Source of the DNA: Phycisphaerae bacterium
GTDB lineage: Bacteria; Planctomycetota; Phycisphaerae; UBA1845; CAIVHJ01
NCBI GenBank assembly: GCA_022072405.1
Contig: JAJVHX010000007.1
Location: 1-64,000, forward strand
Direction of reading: 5' to 3'
DNA: 64,000 nt
The notes beneath the pieces were generated by a model. The model ran no database searches. It was given only the letters and a program-made list of their open reading frames with translations, and was not told the DNA's origin. The position numbers and the translations under genes are program-made. Below are positions 3,396 through 62,932 of the stretch, piece by piece (within the stretch, counting starts at the first letter, position 1; every line of letters begins with the position of its first letter).

Positions 3396-4811
3396 TTAAT
3401 GCCCGCGCCTCTTTGAAGAATCGACGATTGTACCTACGGTATCAATGACATACTGTACTTGTTCAGCGCTGACGTTGGGGTTGATGCCGATCATCAAGCC
3501 GCGTTCATGGATGCGATCGGCGACGGGCAGCGGCCAATCGATCCGCCAGTTCGCGGTGCGGGCCACCGGTTGGCGGGCGAGATTGCCGCCGACAATCGGA
3601 CGGGTTTCAATGCGGGCTTGTTCGAGATGCCGGCGAAAGGTGGCGCGGTCGAATGGTGCTTGATCCTTCAGGATCATCCCAAAACCGAAGGCGGAGTGCA
3701 GGTGGTTGGCGGATTCCTGCTGAAAATCAAGGATATCTGAAAATCCGGCCAAGCCGTCGCGTAATTGTTGTCGGACCTGGCGACGCTGCTGAATGTAGGT
3801 GTCGAGTTTGGCGAGTTGAACGAGGCCCAGAGCGGCGTTGATTTCGGTCGGGCGGACGTTGTAACCCTCGGTGACGAAGACCCAGCGGTCATCCATCTGG
3901 CCGGCGAGTCGGGCCAGTTCCGCACGGTCGCTGCGCTCCCGAATCCAGCCGTGGGCTCTGAGCGATTTCAACCGATTCATCAAATCCTCATCCGCACCGC
4001 TTGTGCCCGTCAACGGTTGATCAGCAGGGTTCTGTTGATCGCTGCCGGCAGCCGGCTGCCGGCTGTTGACGCTGACCATGCCGCCTTCGATGGTGGTCAT
4101 GTGGTGCGAAAAGAAAAAGCTGAAGCTGCTGAGTAATCCAAAGGTTCCGACCTTTTGGCCGTTCACCCTGGCGCCATGCGCTTCACAACAATCTTCAACC
4201 ACCCACAAGTTGTGCCGATGAGCAATTTCCATCAGTTCGACTATATGAGCTGGATTACCCAGCAGGTGAACGATGACGATGCCGCGTGTGCGAGGGGTGA
4301 GCGCTTGTCGGACGCGTTGCGGATCGAGGTTGAAGGTGTGCGGATCGACATCGACCAGCACCGGCACGCCGCCCGCCTGGCGGATCGGGTGGATCGTCGT
4401 GGACCAGGTGACGGCGGGAACGATCACTTCATCACCGGGGTTGAACTGATATTGATCATTCGCGCGGGCTGAAGCTTGCGGCTCATGGTTGTTATCTACG
4501 GAAACATCCGGTTGGGCGAGTGCGGCGAGGGCCAGCAGGTTGGCGCTGGATCCGGAATTGACCATCACACTACCGGCAGCACCGAGATAGTGACTCCAGG
4601 CCTGTTCGAAGGTGTGGGTACGAACACCCATCGTAAACTTGCCGCTGAGCAGTACTTCAACTGCGGCAGCGAGTTCATCCGCATCAATGGTGTTGGTCGC
4701 CAGAGGCCAGCTGTTGGAGTTGAGCGGTGATGTGGCGGCGGCGGCGTAGACCCGCACCTGCTGGAGGATCTGCTGCTGCCACTGTTGCACATGCTCATTC
4801 ATGCCCGCCAT
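3396..4811 (-). CDS. DegT-family PLP enzyme with His at the lysine site (ColD/RfbH-like 3-dehydratase)
   Basis: The 471-residue protein is a DegT/DnrJ/EryC1/StrS fold enzyme. The active-site segment reads SFFFSHHMTTIEGG; aligned with the family pattern (SF...K..TT.EGG), His236 occupies the position of the PLP lysine. A histidine there is known in ColD (GDP-4-keto-6-deoxymannose 3-dehydratase) and in E1/RfbH, which remove a hydroxyl instead of transaminating. With gmd and an Fcl/ColC-like gene beside it, I infer a role in GDP-3,6-dideoxyhexose (colitose-like) synthesis. It is about 80 residues longer than ColD. Two low-complexity insertions explain much of this: about residues 100-118, which overlaps a palindromic repeat, and about 255-280. 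The start could instead be the Met three codons in. Confidence 0.8.
   Translation of the reverse strand: MAGMNEHVQQWQQQILQQVRVYAAAATSPLNSNSWPLATNTIDADELAAAVEVLLSGKFTMGVRTHTFEQAWSHYLGAAGSVMVNSGSSANLLALAALAQPDVSVDNNHEPQASARANDQYQFNPGDEVIVPAVTWSTTIHPIRQAGGVPVLVDVDPHTFNLDPQRVRQALTPRTRGIVIVHLLGNPAHIVELMEIAHRHNLWVVEDCCEAHGARVNGQKVGTFGLLSSFSFFFSHHMTTIEGGMVSVNSRQPAAGSDQQNPADQPLTGTSGADEDLMNRLKSLRAHGWIRERSDRAELARLAGQMDDRWVFVTEGYNVRPTEINAALGLVQLAKLDTYIQQRRQVRQQLRDGLAGFSDILDFQQESANHLHSAFGFGMILKDQAPFDRATFRRHLEQARIETRPIVGGNLARQPVARTANWRIDWPLPVADRIHERGLMIGINPNVSAEQVQYVIDTVGTIVDSSKRRGH
4459..4490 (+). repeat. REP-A repeat inside a coding region
   Basis: A full copy of the dispersed palindrome (cgcgcgggctgaagcttgcg) lies within the DegT-family gene. 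On the coding strand it is translated in frame as EPQASARAND, just before the conserved NPGDEVIVPA segment, so it enlarges a surface loop without breaking the frame. Confidence 0.8.
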
Positions 4812-7459: not shown

Positions 7460-7493
7460 TTCGCGCGGGCTCAAGCCCGCGGCTCATTGAATT
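7460..7493 (+). repeat. REP-A repeat, well preserved
   Basis: tCGCGCGGGCTcaAGCCCGCG followed by gctcattgaatt. This copy also keeps outer flanks: ctggtttcaaaat to the left (about 7434) and attatgaaatcacttcc to the right, which are roughly complementary, so the full element may be about 75 bp. Confidence 0.85.
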
Positions 7494-7531: not shown

Positions 7532-7563
7532 TTGCGCGGGCTTAAGCCTGCGGCTCCTTGAAT
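7532..7563 (+). repeat. REP-A repeat, second copy in tandem
   Basis: gttGCGCGGGCTtaAGCCTGCGGCTCcttgaatt, in the same orientation and 72 bases after the previous copy. The arm change GGGCT/AGCCT leaves one wobble pair. Confidence 0.8.
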
Positions 7564-9705: not shown

Positions 9706-9804
9706 AGCGGATTAGGGTGGGCCACTGCCATATCAACAGTGGTCAAAGACCGCACGGCTCACAGAGCCGTGGCACACCCATCCTATCACTCCAGTCGGTT
9801 CGCT
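9706..9804 (+). repeat. Element B copy (MITE-like, about 99 bp)
   Basis: The segment begins AGCGGATT and ends CGGTTCGCT, roughly inverted termini, and contains the hairpin gCACGGCTCacaGAGCCGTGgcacac. The same hairpin and termini recur near 16.1 and 30.8 kb. A second internal inverted repeat (ccactg...cagtgg) is present here. Confidence 0.6.
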
Positions 9805-13419: not shown

Positions 13420-13451
13420 TTCGCGCGGACTGAAGTCCACGGCTCTTTGTA
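13420..13451 (+). repeat. REP-A repeat with compensatory arm change
   Basis: tcGCGCGGACTgaAGTCCacGGCTCTTTG. The arms read GGACT/AGTCC instead of GGGCT/AGCCC, so both sides changed together. It lies between the FHA-like gene and the kinase. Confidence 0.85.
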
Positions 13452-16108: not shown

Positions 16109-16257
16109 TGGTTTCATTTTTATTGGTCCGCCTGATAGAAACCCCGTGGTGTGCCAAGGCTCTGTGAGCCGTGCGGGATGGCGATCCTCCACCACGGCGG
16201 GTACAGCCGTGGCACACGCAATTCCCACACCACGGAACGATTAACTCGAATCCGCTC
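16109..16257 (-). repeat. Element B copy, longest (about 149 bp)
   Basis: On the minus strand it runs from AGCGGATTCG to ATGAAACC and matches the copy at 30.8 kb at both ends (cggaacgattaa; tattggtccgcctgat). The central hairpin ggctctGTGAGCC is present. An extra segment of about 40 bases around 16170-16220 contains another partial hairpin half. Confidence 0.75.
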
Positions 16258-16289: not shown

Positions 16290-16325
16290 TCGCGCAGGCT
16301 AAAGCCTGCGGCTCTTTGATTTTTG
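16290..16325 (+). repeat. REP-A repeat, well preserved
   Basis: tCGCGCAGGCTaaAGCCTGCGGCTCTTTG with compensatory arms CAGGCT/AGCCTG. The right flank atttttgaaaccacttcc and left flank cgtttcataattgaatt are roughly complementary, giving an outer inverted repeat. Confidence 0.85.
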
Positions 16326-17372: not shown

Positions 17373-17411
17373 TCGCGCCGGCTGAAGCCGGCGGCTCTTT
17401 GAATTTTTGAA
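17373..17411 (+). repeat. REP-A repeat with compensatory arm change
   Basis: tCGCGCCGGCTgaAGCCGGCGGCTCTTTGaatttttgaaacc. The arms are CCGGCT/AGCCGG, again changed on both sides. It separates the sigma factor from the next gene. Confidence 0.85.
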
Positions 17412-21754: not shown

Positions 21755-24700
21755 TTAGTCAACTGCGGGGCGGAGCGGGCCGGCCAGAGTGAGCGAATCC
21801 AAGCCGAGCAGCTGTTCAATATCCTGCCGCAGCCGGGGAGAGGGCAGCACCCGTTCGCCCGGACCGCAGCGCACCCAGGCCCATTGCTGATCGCGGGTCA
21901 GAATCTGCAGCAGCACGGGAATTTCACCCGGATGCTGGCGGAGTATTGTCTCCAGTTGGGGGAGAATGTCCGGTGGGTGCTGGTCGCTGGAGAGGCGGAT
22001 GTGTACCTCCTGCGTCAGGCGATGTTCGACTTCTTCCAGGGGGATGATATCGGCGGTGCGGAGGGCGGGAATCTCGCGGCGGCGGTCCACCAGACCTTTG
22101 AAAAAAAGCACACGGTCCAGCAGCAGCAGGGGGCGGAAGCGTTCCAGATCGGCGGGGAAGAGAATGACTTCGACCGATCCTGTGGTGTCTTCGACGGTGG
22201 CGATGCCCATCCGGGCACCGGCGTTCCGGCCGCTCTTGGTAACGACGGTGCGCAGTTTGGTGAGCAATCCGCCGAGCACCACCTCCGTCCCGTCGGTAAA
22301 AGTGGCCAGCCCCCGGGTGGTGGCGGAAGCGTAGCGGCGAATCAGCGCCTCGTGCTGGGCGAGCGGGTGGTTGGTGATGTAAAAGCCCAGCACCTCTTTT
22401 TCGTAAGCGAGCAGTTCCGCTTCGCTCCATTGCTGGTTGGCGGGAATGGCGGGGTAGTGTACCGGTGCGGCGGGGGATTCCGGTCCGGCGAAGAAATCCA
22501 TCAGTGACATCTGGCCGCTGAGGCGGTCGCGCTGGCGATTCTGCCCCGCTTCGTAGGCACTCTCAATCACGGTCATGAGTGCTTTGCGCATCGCCCCGGT
22601 GGAATCGAAGGCACCGGCTTTGATCAGGGCTTCGATGGCTCCGCGATGCACAGCCGACAGATCAACCCGCTCACAGAATTCGTACAGGTTTTTGAACTCC
22701 CCGTCTTCGGTTCGGGCGTGAATGATGGCCTGGACGGCTTTTTCGCCCAGTCCCTTGATGGCGCCCAGGCCGAAGCGCAGATACCCGGACAGGGCATCGA
22801 AGGGGTGCTTATCGGCCGACGGATCGGCATCGCGCTGGCTGAAGCCCGCGGCTCTTGGAGAAGCGATCGGATAGACCGGGGTGAAGTCGTAGCCGGAGGA
22901 GTTGATATCGGGCGGTTTGACGACGATCTGCATGCGGCGGCACTCTTCGATATGTTCGATCACCTTGTCGGTGTTACCCATTTCAAAGGTGAGGACGGCA
23001 GCCATGAACTCCAGCGGGTGGTAACACTTCATGTAGGCGGTCTGGAAGGCGATGAGGGCGTAGCCGGTGGAATGGGCCTTGTTAAAGGCGTAGCCGCCGA
23101 AGCGGAGGATGTTCTCAAATATTTCATTGGTGACGGCGTCGGCGAGGCCGTTGGCCCGGCAACCGGCGAGAAAATCTTCGCGCATGGCGGCGATCATGGC
23201 GGTGTTTTTCTTGCTGATGGCCTTGGCGAGGCGGAAGGCTTTTTTCAGTTCGATATTGCCGAGGCGATTGACCAGCCGCGAAACCTGCTCCTGATAAACC
23301 ATGATGCCGTAGGTTTCCGCGAGTACTTCAGTCATCAGCGGGTGGGGCGTGGTCCAGGCTTCACCATGTTTGCGCGAGACGTAGGCATCGATGTTGACCA
23401 TCGGCCCGGGGCGGTACAGGGCGTTGGCGGCGATCAGATCGTGAATGCGATTGGGTTTCATCTTGCGCAGCACGTCGCGCATGCCGTCTGATTCAAACTG
23501 AAAGATGCCCCGGGTATCCCCCTCGGCGAAGACGCGATAGACGCTCTGATCGTCGAGGTCCAGTTGATCCAGGTTGATGGTCCGGCCGATTTTTTTCTCG
23601 GCGAGTTGGCGGGCCCGTTCCAGCGTGGTGAGGGTGCGCAGGCCGAGAAAATCCATTTTTAACAAGCCGACCTTTTCCACGGTCGGGCCGTCATACTGGG
23701 TAACAATCTGTTCCAGGCCTCCACTCCCGGCGGCGGGTGGTTTGTAGAGCGGCAGGAAATTTTCGAGCGGTTGATCGGCGATGACCACACCGGCCGCGTG
23801 GACTCCGGCGTGGCGGGCCAGCCCTTCGATGCGTTTGCTGATATCGATTACTTTTCTGACCAGCGGGTCGGACTGGTAGAGCTTGGCCAGTTCCGGCTCG
23901 GATTCGAGGGCTTTGTCGATGGTCATGTGCAGTTCGGCGGGGATCAGCTCGGTGAGCTTGGTGGCCCGCTCGAACTCGATGCCCAGCACGCGGGCGACGT
24001 CTTTGACGGCGGCGCGGGCTTTGAGCGTGCCGAAGGTGATGATCTGGGCGACATGGCCATATTTCTGCCGCACGTAATCGAGCACCTGCTGGCGACCTTC
24101 CTGGCAGAGGTCGATGTCGATGTCGGGCATTTCGTCGCGGTCGGGGTCCATGAAGCGTTCGAAGTAGAGTTCATAGCGCAAGGGGTCGGGGGCGGAGAGG
24201 CCAAGGCAGTAGCCGACCACCGAACTGCAGGCCGAACCGCGCGCTCCGCAGGGAATCCCCTGCCGCCGGGCATATTCAACGAAATCCCAGACGATCAGAA
24301 AATAGCTGGAAAAACCCTTGCCGGCGATCACGCTGAGTTCATAGTCGATCCGCTCACGGATGGCGGGGATCCGTTCACCATAGCGCTGGAGCGCCCCGGC
24401 ATAGACCAGCTCGCGCAGGTAATCGTTATCGCTTTTTTTCTGCGGCGGATGATAGACCGGGGCGTAACGTTTGCCGAAGGATAGTTCGAGGTTGCAGAGA
24501 TCGGCGACATGCAGAGTGTTGGAGAGCAGTTCCGGGTGGTCGGGGAACAGCGTCGCCATTTCCGCGCCGGTTTTGAGATAAAATTCCTCGCTGGGAAACT
24601 TGAAGCGGTCGGTTTCGTTGACCAGGCTGCCGGTGGAAATACAGCAGAGCACGTCGTGGGCTTCGGCATCGTCGCGGTGGAGATAATGGACGTCGTTCGT

Positions 24701-25348
24701 GGCGATGGCGGCGACGCCGAGGCGCCGGGCCATATCGAGCAGGGCGGGGTTGAGCTGGCGTTGTTCAGGAATGCCGTGATCCTGCAGCTCGATGAAGAAG
24801 CGATCCGGCCCGAAAATTTCGAGATAACTCCTGGCGACATCTTCCGCCATTTTCTGATCGCGATGCAGGAGCAGTTGCGGCAACTCGGCTCCAAGACAGG
24901 TGGAGGTACAGATCAGCCCCTCACTGAATTCACGCAACGCTTCCTTGTCAATCCGGGGTTTGTAGTAAAAACCTTCGCGATAACCGAGAGTAGCCAGCTT
25001 GAGCAGATTGTGATAGCCGGTAAGGTTCTGAGCCAGCAGCAGCAGGTGGTAACTGGTATCACCGCCGATGCACTTGGCTTCTTTGTCGCTGCGGTGGCGC
25101 GGAGCCAGGTAGGCTTCCATGCCGACCAGCGGTTTGATACCGGCTTTGCGGGCGGCAGTGAAAAACTCTATGGCTCCGAACATGTTGCCATGGTCGCTGA
25201 TGGCTACGGCGGGCATGTGCAGCTCTTGCAGCCGGGCCATGAGGCGGTGAATTTCAGTCGCCCCATCGAGCAGGCTGTAATGGGTGTGCAGATGGAGGTG
25301 AACAAATGGGGGTGCGGCTGCAGAAACTGACGGCGGTGGTATGACCAT
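21755..25348 (-). CDS. dnaE: DNA polymerase III alpha subunit
   Basis: DnaE is the replicative polymerase. The 1197-residue protein begins with a PHP domain (HLHLHTHYSLLDG; ISDHGNMFGA). The polymerase active-site aspartates are in PDIDIDLCQEG (about 409-419). Motifs such as DFLGLRTLTT, RPGPMVNID and FNKAHSTGYALIAFQ follow, then the helix-hairpin-helix region (LRFGLGAIKGLGEKA) and an OB fold near 1000-1080. Length matches the family. A dispersed palindromic repeat is present in frame at about residues 830-840 (ASPRAAGFSQRDAD), in the variable stretch before the helix-hairpin-helix region. It is monocistronic. Confidence 0.97.
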   Translation of the reverse strand: MVIPPPSVSAAAPPFVHLHLHTHYSLLDGATEIHRLMARLQELHMPAVAISDHGNMFGAIEFFTAARKAGIKPLVGMEAYLAPRHRSDKEAKCIGGDTSYHLLLLAQNLTGYHNLLKLATLGYREGFYYKPRIDKEALREFSEGLICTSTCLGAELPQLLLHRDQKMAEDVARSYLEIFGPDRFFIELQDHGIPEQRQLNPALLDMARRLGVAAIATNDVHYLHRDDAEAHDVLCCISTGSLVNETDRFKFPSEEFYLKTGAEMATLFPDHPELLSNTLHVADLCNLELSFGKRYAPVYHPPQKKSDNDYLRELVYAGALQRYGERIPAIRERIDYELSVIAGKGFSSYFLIVWDFVEYARRQGIPCGARGSACSSVVGYCLGLSAPDPLRYELYFERFMDPDRDEMPDIDIDLCQEGRQQVLDYVRQKYGHVAQIITFGTLKARAAVKDVARVLGIEFERATKLTELIPAELHMTIDKALESEPELAKLYQSDPLVRKVIDISKRIEGLARHAGVHAAGVVIADQPLENFLPLYKPPAAGSGGLEQIVTQYDGPTVEKVGLLKMDFLGLRTLTTLERARQLAEKKIGRTINLDQLDLDDQSVYRVFAEGDTRGIFQFESDGMRDVLRKMKPNRIHDLIAANALYRPGPMVNIDAYVSRKHGEAWTTPHPLMTEVLAETYGIMVYQEQVSRLVNRLGNIELKKAFRLAKAISKKNTAMIAAMREDFLAGCRANGLADAVTNEIFENILRFGGYAFNKAHSTGYALIAFQTAYMKCYHPLEFMAAVLTFEMGNTDKVIEHIEECRRMQIVVKPPDINSSGYDFTPVYPIASPRAAGFSQRDADPSADKHPFDALSGYLRFGLGAIKGLGEKAVQAIIHARTEDGEFKNLYEFCERVDLSAVHRGAIEALIKAGAFDSTGAMRKALMTVIESAYEAGQNRQRDRLSGQMSLMDFFAGPESPAAPVHYPAIPANQQWSEAELLAYEKEVLGFYITNHPLAQHEALIRRYASATTRGLATFTDGTEVVLGGLLTKLRTVVTKSGRNAGARMGIATVEDTTGSVEVILFPADLERFRPLLLLDRVLFFKGLVDRRREIPALRTADIIPLEEVEHRLTQEVHIRLSSDQHPPDILPQLETILRQHPGEIPVLLQILTRDQQWAWVRCGPGERVLPSPRLRQDIEQLLGLDSLTLAGPLRPAVD
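22829..22860 (+). repeat. REP-A repeat inside dnaE
   Basis: tCGCGCTGGCTgaAGCCCGCGGCTCTTgg matches the dispersed palindrome and lies within dnaE. It is translated on the minus strand as SPRAAGFSQRDA and preserves the frame. DnaE proteins normally have a short, variable connection at this point. Confidence 0.85.
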
Positions 25349-30710: not shown

Positions 30711-30858
30711 TCCGCGCGGGCTAAAGCGGATTCGTATTAATCGTTCCGTAGTGCAGGACTGCAATATCACACGGCTCACGGAGCCGTGGCACACCACGGG
30801 GTCTTTATCAGGCGGACCAATAACAATGAAACCGCTCTGAAGCCCGCGGCTTTTTGAA
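30711..30858 (+). repeat. REP-A repeat split in two by Element B
   Basis: The left half (tccGCGCGGGCTaaag, 30711-30726) and right half (ctgaAGCCCGCGGCTttttgaag, from 30836) together rebuild one palindromic repeat. Everything between them is Element B. The loop hexamer CTRAAG occurs on both sides, as a target-site duplication would leave. Confidence 0.8.
30726..30836 (+). mobile_element. Element B copy nested inside a REP-A repeat
   Basis: About 111 bp beginning gCGGATTCG and ending AAACCGCT, imperfect inverted termini, with the hairpin CACGGCTCacgGAGCCGTG in the middle. It encodes nothing. It matches the reverse complement of 16109-16257 along both ends. Non-coding, short, inverted termini and a possible target duplication together suggest a MITE-like element. 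Confidence 0.7.
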
Positions 30859-31856: not shown

Positions 31857-31890
31857 CTCGTGCAGGCTGAAGCCTGCGGCTCTTTGAATT
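31857..31890 (+). repeat. REP-A repeat
   Basis: tCGTGCAGGCTgaAGCCTGCGGCTCTTTGaatt, arms CAGGCT/AGCCTG. It lies in the divergent gap between yggS and trmB, 38 bases before the trmB start. Confidence 0.85.
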
Positions 31891-38549: not shown

Positions 38550-38581
38550 TTCGCGCAGGCTCAAGCCTGCGGCTCGTTGAG
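38550..38581 (+). repeat. REP-A repeat, well preserved
   Basis: tCGCGCAGGCTcaAGCCTGCGGCTCgttga, arms CAGGCT/AGCCTG, in the hutU-tssM gap. Confidence 0.85.
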
Positions 38582-38746: not shown

Positions 38747-38778
38747 TTCGCGCGGGCAGAAGCCAGTGGCTCTTTAGA
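38747..38778 (+). repeat. REP-A repeat, degenerate, just before tssM
   Basis: ttCGCGCGGGCagaAGCCAGTGGCTCTTTagagg. The right arm has two changes. It ends in the agagg that serves as ribosome-binding site for tssM. Confidence 0.7.
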
Positions 38779-43105: not shown

Positions 43106-43134
43106 CCGCGCGGGCTGAAGCCTGCGACTCGTTA
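43106..43134 (+). repeat. REP-A repeat between tssM and tagF
   Basis: ccGCGCGGGCTgaAGCCTGCGaCTCgtta. It lies in the 117-base gap of a probable tssM-tagF operon. Confidence 0.8.
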
Positions 43135-55134: not shown

Positions 55135-55401
55135 ACATGCGCGTCGTGGACTGATCGGTCATCAATGATCGGAGGCAGGGCGCGCGGGGATCCGTTTTGA
55201 ACCATTGGGGAATTCCTGCCAAGTTCTGGTTTCGACGTCAGCTGTTAGCTGGGAGAGAAAATGGTCAGAAAGAACGGCCCCATAGATGGCTTTTGCCTGC
55301 TGGTCAGCGGTGTATCAAAATATCGCTCGCACGTTAATCCTTGTTTCCAGGTTCCTATCGAGGATTCTTCATCATGCCCCGCCGCGTCCTGTGAACAAAA
55401 T

Positions 55402-55692
55402 TTCTGATGCTCGCACCACCGCGGCTGCTGATCAGCCGATTCGCTGCCAGCGATTCCTCGGCGGACTGCTCAAACATTACTACCAGCCCGCCGCCTGACC
55501 AGACTCATCTGCCGAAATACTCTTGACTCGACATCGGAACTGTATTATTTATCGGCAGTGACTTCCTGGATGGCTCAGCATCCAGCTTGAGTTGTACGCC
55601 TCCTTCAAACCCCCATTCCATCGTTACACGCTACTCGAAAAACAAAAGGGACGAGCAGCAACATTTTCATACACCGCTGATACGGCGCGGGC
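55402..55692 (+). mobile_element. Insertion-sequence right end, copy 1 (291 bp)
   Basis: This segment is nearly identical to 58477-58766. Its first 97 bases encode the end of an integrase-type transposase (TTAAADQPIRCQRFLGGLLK, then HYY and a stop at 55498); the rest is the downstream non-coding end. The upstream transposase gene is missing, so this is a dead fragment. Both copies end at gatacggcgcgggc, after which they diverge. Confidence 0.85.
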
Positions 55693-58324: not shown

Positions 58325-58573
58325 GCGTCGCATGGCCTCCGCCATCTGCAACACATCGCCCGCGAATATGTCACTTTCTACAATCGCTATCGCCCCCATC
58401 AGGGTATCGGCAATCAACCACTGCCAACCGGTCCACCCCCGACTCGACCTCGCCGCCGAAGTTCGGCGAGCAGAACTTCTGATGCTCGCACCACCGCGGC
58501 TGCTGATCAGCCGATTCGCTGCCAACGATTCCTCGGCGGACTGCTCAAACATTACTACCACCCCGCCGCCTGA
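58325..58573 (+). pseudogene. Integrase-type transposase, C-terminal fragment
   Basis: The plus-strand frame reads HIAREYVTFYNRYRPHQGIG and continues in frame to a stop at 58571-58573, ending GGLLKHYYHPAA. YNxxRPHxGxxxxxP is the classic end of rve integrase-core transposases (IS3/IS481 type). The N-terminal catalytic part is absent. The last 97 bases are duplicated at 55402-55498. Confidence 0.85.
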
Positions 58574-58766
58574 TCAGACTCACCTCGCCTTGATGCTTGA
58601 CTCGAAACCCAATCCATATTATTTATCGGCAGTAACTTCCTGGATGGCTCAGCATCCAGCTTGAGTTGTACGCCTCCTTCAAACCCCCATTCCATCGTTA
58701 CACGCTACTCGAAAAACAAAAGGGACGAGCAGCAACATTTTCATACACCGCTGATACGGCGCGGGC
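58477..58766 (+). mobile_element. Insertion-sequence right end, copy 2 (290 bp)
   Basis: Near-identical partner of 55402-55692, covering the transposase end and about 190 bases of downstream sequence. Differences are few and mostly in the 40 bases after the stop codon. The two copies lie downstream of different toxin/immunity modules. Confidence 0.85.
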
Positions 58767-62899: not shown

Positions 62900-62932
62900 G
62901 TCCGCGCGAGCTGAAGCTCGCGGCTCGGAGTT
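62900..62932 (+). repeat. REP-A repeat with compensatory arm change
   Basis: tcCGCGCGAGCTgaAGCTCGCGGCTCgga. Arms GAGCT/AGCTC are changed on both sides. It lies in the divergent gap between surE and nnrE. Confidence 0.85.

Follow-up and report, generated by a model that had tools for sequence, protein, structure and literature searches.

How does a palindromic repeat come to lie in frame inside the gene of the replicative DNA polymerase, and how is it tolerated there? The question is raised by a stretch of 64,000 nucleotides (the window) from a Phycisphaerae bacterium (contig JAJVHX010000007.1), whose source genome, designated G000, is a metagenome assembly of 3.57 Mb in 28 contigs.

The REP-A Copy in dnaE

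The dnaE gene is coded on the minus strand (21755-25348) as an open reading frame of 1197 aa, and two NCBIfam equivalog models, both above cut-off, identify its product as DNA polymerase III alpha. The core of the repeat REP-A, TCGCGCTGGCTGAAGCCCGCGGCTC, lies within it at 22830-22854 of the plus strand, and fits the family pattern TCGCGCNGGCTNAAGCCNGCGGCTC without a mismatch. On the minus strand, this core codes for residues 832-840 of DnaE (RAAGFSQRD), which form part of the peptide SPRAAGFSQRDA at residues 830-841. The initial annotation had reported an in-frame copy at about residues 830-840; its coordinates are right, and the insert is confirmed as a genuine REP-A copy in frame. The features of the gene are as follows.

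21755-25348, minus strand: dnaE, DNA polymerase III alpha subunit (open reading frame; NCBIfam models)
22781-22879, minus strand: variable loop of DnaE, residues 824-856, 33 aa (loop survey; 3-residue turn in Thermus; pLDDT below 50 at 829-852)
22827-22864, plus strand: 38-nt REP-A element, the core plus less conserved flanks (13 copies in direct-repeat family D1; extended consensus built from 78 copies)
22830-22854, plus strand: REP-A core in dnaE (0 mismatches to the family pattern; translation)

The copy has diverged from the family: its stem is interrupted by a T-C mismatch, and in place of the conserved tail tTTGAA it has TTGGAG. The frame is kept, in line with the earlier remark that the insertion must be tolerated in an essential gene; the essential status of dnaE, and of valS, leuS, alaS, and purH below, is taken from other bacteria.

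The REP-A Family in the Genome

REP-A consists of a 25-nt core, or 38 nt with the tail, and has a 7-bp stem, which in size and copy number agrees with REPs as imperfect palindromes of 20-40 bp present in high copy. Seventy-eight copies yield the consensus TCGCGCnGGCTnAAGCCnGCGGCTCtTTGAA, beyond which conservation is weak; neither GTAG nor CGTC, the terminal tetranucleotides of the superfamilies of those names, occurs in this extended consensus. Compensation is seen at the free stem positions N6-N17, which form a pair (G-C, A-T, G-T, or C-G) in 83 of 107 copies. With up to three mismatches allowed, the genome holds 222 copies, 144 forward and 78 reverse, as against 0 matches of a reversed control pattern. 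The window has 12 copies at the same threshold (0.00 expected from 100 shuffles), all 12 on the plus strand. Apart from the dnaE copy, these are:

4460-4484, plus strand: copy in frame in the gene of a DegT/DnrJ-family aminotransferase (3396-4811, minus strand), peptide EPQASARAN
7461-7485, plus strand: intergenic copy
7532-7556, plus strand: intergenic copy, 1 mismatch
13421-13445, plus strand: copy with 3 mismatches
16290-16314, plus strand: intergenic copy
17373-17397, plus strand: intergenic copy with perfect stem
31858-31882, plus strand: copy with 1 mismatch
38551-38575, plus strand: intergenic copy
38748-38772, plus strand: copy with 2 mismatches
43106-43130, plus strand: copy with 2 mismatches
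62902-62926, plus strand: copy with 3 mismatches

Two other repeats were seen in the window. A second palindromic family, CACGGCTCACAGAGCCGTGGCACACC, is present at 9753-9780, 16193-16220, and 30770-30797, and a stretch of about 300 bp is duplicated 3 kb apart (55386-55692 and 58461-58766, 92-95% identical).

Location relative to genes was determined for the 107 copies in 1.26 Mb of the 3.57 Mb genome, with genes called by our own simple dicodon model (coding fraction 0.84). Thirty-one copies (29%) lie wholly inside genes, one lies at an edge, and 75 are outside called genes, whereas random insertion would place about 90 of the 107 in genes. As the coding share is far under this expectation, most coding insertions have been purged or avoided. 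A check of the six frames of REP-A, proposed at the outset, revealed three that are fully stop-free, and 30 of the 31 coding copies use one of them: 14 on the element's own strand (IARAEARGS) and 16 on the opposite strand (RAAGFSPRE, EPRASARA). The suggestion that the element is always translated in a single reading direction thus fails, with 15 coding copies read on the repeat's own strand and 16 on the opposite one. For the DegT-type and dnaE copies it was right about the strand, which is the same, but the frames differ (EPQASARA versus RAAGFSQRD). Coding copies are hosted by valS, argS, ligA (NAD-dependent DNA ligase), argC, queC, an acyl-CoA synthetase, a lysA-type diaminopimelate/ornithine decarboxylase, the DegT aminotransferase, and others. 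For argS, ligA, argC, and queC, orthologues from the same family (G001, G002), 61-71% identical, have no REP-A peptide and represent empty sites, with alignment gaps of about 12-25 residues.

The DnaE Loop as an Insertion Site

In Thermus DnaE, only 3 residues separate the positions that flank the insert (882 and 886, corresponding to 824 and 856 here), so that a 3-residue turn stands against a loop of about 33 residues between two beta strands. Among 73 distinct loops of relatives, the length varies from 5 to 65 aa with a median of 13, is at least 20 aa in 20 of them, and is in every case a multiple of three nucleotides. High GC content and hypervariability mark the loop in all relatives surveyed. 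This agrees with the first description of the site as a normally variable connection ahead of the helix-hairpin-helix (HhH) region; the repeat lies immediately before RFGLGAIKG/HhH. An AlphaFold2 model (mean pLDDT 85), built on an alignment of 39 sequences from the window and relatives, gives pLDDT below 50 to residues 829-852, between strands 823-825 and 856-858, and the loop carrying the repeat is accordingly predicted to be disordered. From the variation in loop length together with the model, REP-A appears to sit at the tip of a very tolerant beta hairpin, where it contributes only about 10-12 of some 20 additional residues.

Other genomes carry other repeats in this loop. In G002, of the same family, it holds a different palindrome, AGAGCCGCGAGCGCGAGCGACCGGCC (GAGCC..GAGCG..AGCGA), with 10 sites in that genome, although the same genome has 129 copies of REP-A. 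The loop of G061 (locus L112) contains GCAGGTCTCTGACCTGC units of the family GGCAGGTCTCTGACCTGCC, with 39 sites genome-wide, and that of G041 a stretch of 68 nt, of which an 85% copy lies elsewhere within 30 kb. The loops of G018 and G042 contain GGGATC- and GGGGCC-type arrays with inverted arms; these are a weaker case than REP-A, since the GGGATC family is a low-complexity array that its reversed control also matches (51 versus 23 and 85 versus 35). Two further loop inserts (L034, L056) have no second copy within about 39 kb each, which is a weak test. An empty dnaE site was not found in the close relatives, as G002 has the other insert and dnaE of G001 was not located. The DnaE loop is a recurrent permissive site, with a different multi-copy repeat in at least three other genomes, and the inserts are best read as independent hits by unrelated repeat families at one spot.

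Further observations were made in the course of this survey. Locus L104 (JANQQE010000032.1), titled Alphaproteobacteria, has a DnaE loop peptide identical to that of the Phycisphaerae record L123 and is probably mislabelled or misbinned. G042 codes for a second, DnaE2-like polymerase (G042:C79:22910-27103, open frame of 1438 aa) with several GGGATC arrays, and DnaE2 frames of 1300-1750 aa are present in other genomes of its family.

RAYT Transposases Nested in Essential Enzymes

The genome has three matches to PF01797 (IS200-like, Y1), one a free-standing gene (contig C14) and two inside open reading frames of essential enzymes. The first of the two, at C3:191447-195715 (L219:11447-15715, outside the window), codes for a valyl-tRNA synthetase of 1422 aa with a RAYT of about 190 aa in frame between QWFVKMDDMTDKCPNLAK and GLATQVLNAADEIQFIPERY. 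This valS gene contains seven REP-A copies, all in frame: two before the RAYT, one after it, and four elsewhere. G001 and G002, of the same family, have a plain ValRS (frames of 1092 and 1033 aa) with an empty site at the RAYT position. The second, on contig C17 (L312:351-3824), is a leucyl-tRNA synthetase of 1158 aa with a RAYT in frame within the editing domain, flanked by a REP-A variant of its own. The RAYT domain scores 28-42 bits against the NCBIfam model REP_Tyr_transpos and does not reach its cut-off of 80. The Pfam score of the ValRS-borne RAYT is 22.7, just under the cut-off of 23; the RAYT does pass the PF01797 cut-off when the genome is searched, as it does in the leuS and purH cases. 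At the ValRS loop where G000 has a REP pair, a tandem NDERPTT repeat is present in G001 (L300) and a REP-A-type peptide, ARAEARGS, in G002, which makes this another recurrently hit loop.

The RAYT of the genome was used as a query against 114 genomes of the order. This RAYT, designated subtype A, is in frame in valS of G000, G053, and G086, all at the same site, in leuS of G000, and in purH of seven genomes of three families (L242-L248), where one site is shared. Inverted REP-A-type palindromes flank 11 of 11 nested subtype-A RAYTs, with a shuffle expectation of 0.04 or less, and all 11 therefore combine a Y1 HUH gene with inverted REP flanks, the arrangement that defines a REPtron/RAYT. The leuS copy and the purH copy of G028 have their own REP variants, that of G028 on both sides of the RAYT. 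Ten of these 11 RAYTs retain both the HUH and the Tyr (Y-x-x-x-Q) motif; the G074 copy has DRVH instead. A second RAYT subtype (YGTWLHG) is flanked by a different palindrome, inverted CCGCTCCCTNACGGTCGCGGCTC, and lies in frame in alaS of G102, G041, G103, G044, G040, and G013 (L309, L314, L315, L317, L318, L319), the site in G013 AlaRS being unlike that of the other alaS cases. The same subtype is in frame in valS of G004 and, in other orders, of G312 and G482. The nested valS RAYT of G486 has yet another flanking palindrome. The identity of the host enzymes was borne out by domain models in the cases scanned. Nested RAYTs are thus common across the class; outside it, RAYT relatives are free-standing genes of 155-230 aa (392 genomes of the phylum).

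Between two species of one genus, the purH RAYT has dN of 0.084 and dS of 0.65, and the C-terminal part of PurH 0.071 and 0.62; the values for RAYT and enzyme are closely alike, and the RAYT is thus under purifying selection. For several nested RAYTs, the 60 codons upstream contain neither ATG nor GTG nor TTG, so that translation of these RAYTs is hardly possible except as part of the host enzyme. The RAYT tree does not recover the purH and valS groups as single clades, and the shared sites may reflect either old inheritance or repeated insertion. Two further arrangements were recorded: in G109 a RAYT and MutS share one open frame, the RAYT coming first, and in G049 a RAYT lies inside an MmeI-type restriction enzyme (L310, L311).

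Origin of the dnaE Insert

At least 10 REP-A copies were found in 9 of 11 genomes with a subtype-A RAYT, as against 11 of 50 without it (Fisher p 3e-4). The cognate pairing is a trend and not a rule, because G002 is rich in REP-A but has only weak RAYT matches. Plus-strand copies of REP-A lie in regions of higher local GC skew than minus-strand copies (p 4e-4, one copy counted per 5-kb cluster; contigs C7, C1, C2, and C3). Insertion by way of single strands at replication forks would produce such a bias; this mode is established for IS200/IS605-type Y1 transposases (PMC6006769). On these comparisons, REP-A is best read as the mobilised end sequence of the subtype-A RAYT.

REP-A could also have spread without a transposase, through template switching or gene conversion between palindromes, with the RAYT as an unrelated passenger. 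The state of G002 would suit such a process, as would the low-complexity palindromic GGGATC arrays of G018 and G042, which have no evident transposase. It would leave unaccounted for the inverted REP-A-type flanks on every nested subtype-A RAYT, the private variant on both sides of the G028 purH RAYT, the change of flanking palindrome with the RAYT subtype, and the strand bias that tracks GC skew, and we consider it unlikely.

Retention of the dnaE copy for a function, either as an mRNA or DNA hairpin (pausing, gyrase or IHF site) or as a peptide useful to the polymerase, is more doubtful still. REPs elsewhere act on mRNA stability and supercoiling, and several relatives have different repeats in the same loop. 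Roles of REPs in mRNA stability and supercoiling have also been hypothesised by others (PMC3733652). The dnaE copy, with its broken hairpin, folds no better than shuffles (z +0.44), and stems are intact as often in coding copies (14 of 31) as in intergenic ones (39 of 76), which argues against a functional hairpin in dnaE; the encoded residues are predicted to be disordered and are not conserved.

If the nested elements were removed from protein or RNA in the manner of inteins or introns, mature DnaE and ValRS would not contain them, and inteins do prefer essential enzymes of nucleic-acid metabolism. In the nested proteins examined, however, no intein (Hint/splicing) domain was recognized, only Y1_Tnp and host domains; an Rfam scan of the window matched tRNA as the sole family and thus neither an intron in dnaE nor another RNA family; and REP peptides of 9-12 residues are far too short for self-splicing. 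Removal is accordingly very improbable. Chance likeness of an ordinary DnaE sequence to the repeat, for which the hypervariable GC-rich loop would give some room, is excluded for practical purposes by the shuffle controls (the match to a family of 222 copies is exact, where none is expected) and by the relatives, in which the peptide was sought, as the annotation had advised, and was absent from 72 of 72 other distinct loops, mostly short ones.

Placement by a RAYT remains the preferred reading. The dnaE insert would be the relic of a REP element, a non-autonomous palindrome of 25-38 nt, most likely placed as single-stranded DNA by an HUH/Y1 RAYT, the RAYT genes of the same genome carrying inverted REP-A flanks. 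With three of six frames free of stops and the frame kept, insertions in exposed loops could persist as harmless extra peptides, and the remaining insertions in genes would be purged. One such site would be the loop that joins strands 823-825 and 856-858 of DnaE, where unrelated repeats would have inserted independently in several relatives. The same tolerance may have admitted REP-RAYT-REP units in frame into valS and leuS here and into valS, alaS, and purH in relatives, where the transposase would be translated within an indispensable enzyme, would be hard to delete, and would be retained through the host gene. We hold with good confidence that the dnaE insert is a REP relic placed by a RAYT at a permissive loop, that loop insertions which keep the frame survive, and that whole units became nested likewise.

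Comparison with Known Systems

Rickettsia palindromic elements (RPEs) resemble REP-A in being palindromic repeats in frame in essential genes; REP-A has 31 coding copies. The rickettsial elements belong to another phylum and RPE-1 is longer, and we know of no RAYT linked to RPEs. Inteins with homing endonucleases resemble the nested RAYTs in that a nuclease forms an in-frame segment of essential enzymes at a site shared by many species. Unlike with inteins, no splicing domain was recognized in the nested cases; mature protein presumably retains the insert, and the part of the nuclease is taken by an HUH transposase bounded by REPs.

Di Nocera et al. (2013) described REPs in genes of several species, many with a role in replication or repair, including a DnaE of Rickettsia conorii as well as DnaE2, DNA ligase, and tRNA synthetases (PMC3733652). 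Like REP-A, these GTAG/CGTC REPs are short palindromes, mostly intergenic, with some in frame in replication, repair, and tRNA-synthetase genes. In contrast to them, REP-A has neither end, its 222 copies include 29% inside genes among those sampled, and one dnaE loop has been hit by unrelated families in different genomes. A REP in dnaE alone is therefore an already-known type of event (PMC3733652); the pattern of nested RAYTs is not. REPtrons and the class 3 TnpA-Y1 of Planctomycetes and Acidobacteria, a rare planctomycete Y1 class with REP-like flanks, share the HUH/Y1 gene with inverted REP flanks, but those described are separate genes, whereas the units found here are embedded entire and in frame in essential enzymes; the Tyr motif is Y-x-x-x-Q here and Y-x-x-x-x-Q in class 3 (PMC6006769). 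No report of a whole REP-RAYT unit in frame in an essential enzyme was found in the open-access literature searched.

Our overall reading, which we consider probable though less secure than the origin of the dnaE insert, is that complete REP-RAYT-REP units of Phycisphaerae lie in frame in ValRS, AlaRS, LeuRS, and PurH at preferred sites, and that the transposase, made solely as a domain within the enzyme and maintained by purifying selection, spreads in-frame REP peptides from there to DnaE and to dozens of further proteins. Such a lifestyle of a mobile element, previously undescribed, would amount to a refuge like that of inteins but without splicing. The 2018 survey of Y1 transposases dropped unexpectedly long proteins as fusions or annotation errors (PMC6006769), and surveys that drop long RAYT proteins may have lost exactly such nested cases. 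For overlong housekeeping proteins in Planctomycetota, annotation error is not the necessary reading. In DnaE, ValRS, AlaRS, and PurH, the nested units and REP inserts amount to insertion scans done by nature, which mark permissive loops. If the reading is true, a transposase kept as a translated domain within an essential enzyme would be a non-splicing counterpart of inteins, and nested RAYTs would explain how REP systems escape loss.
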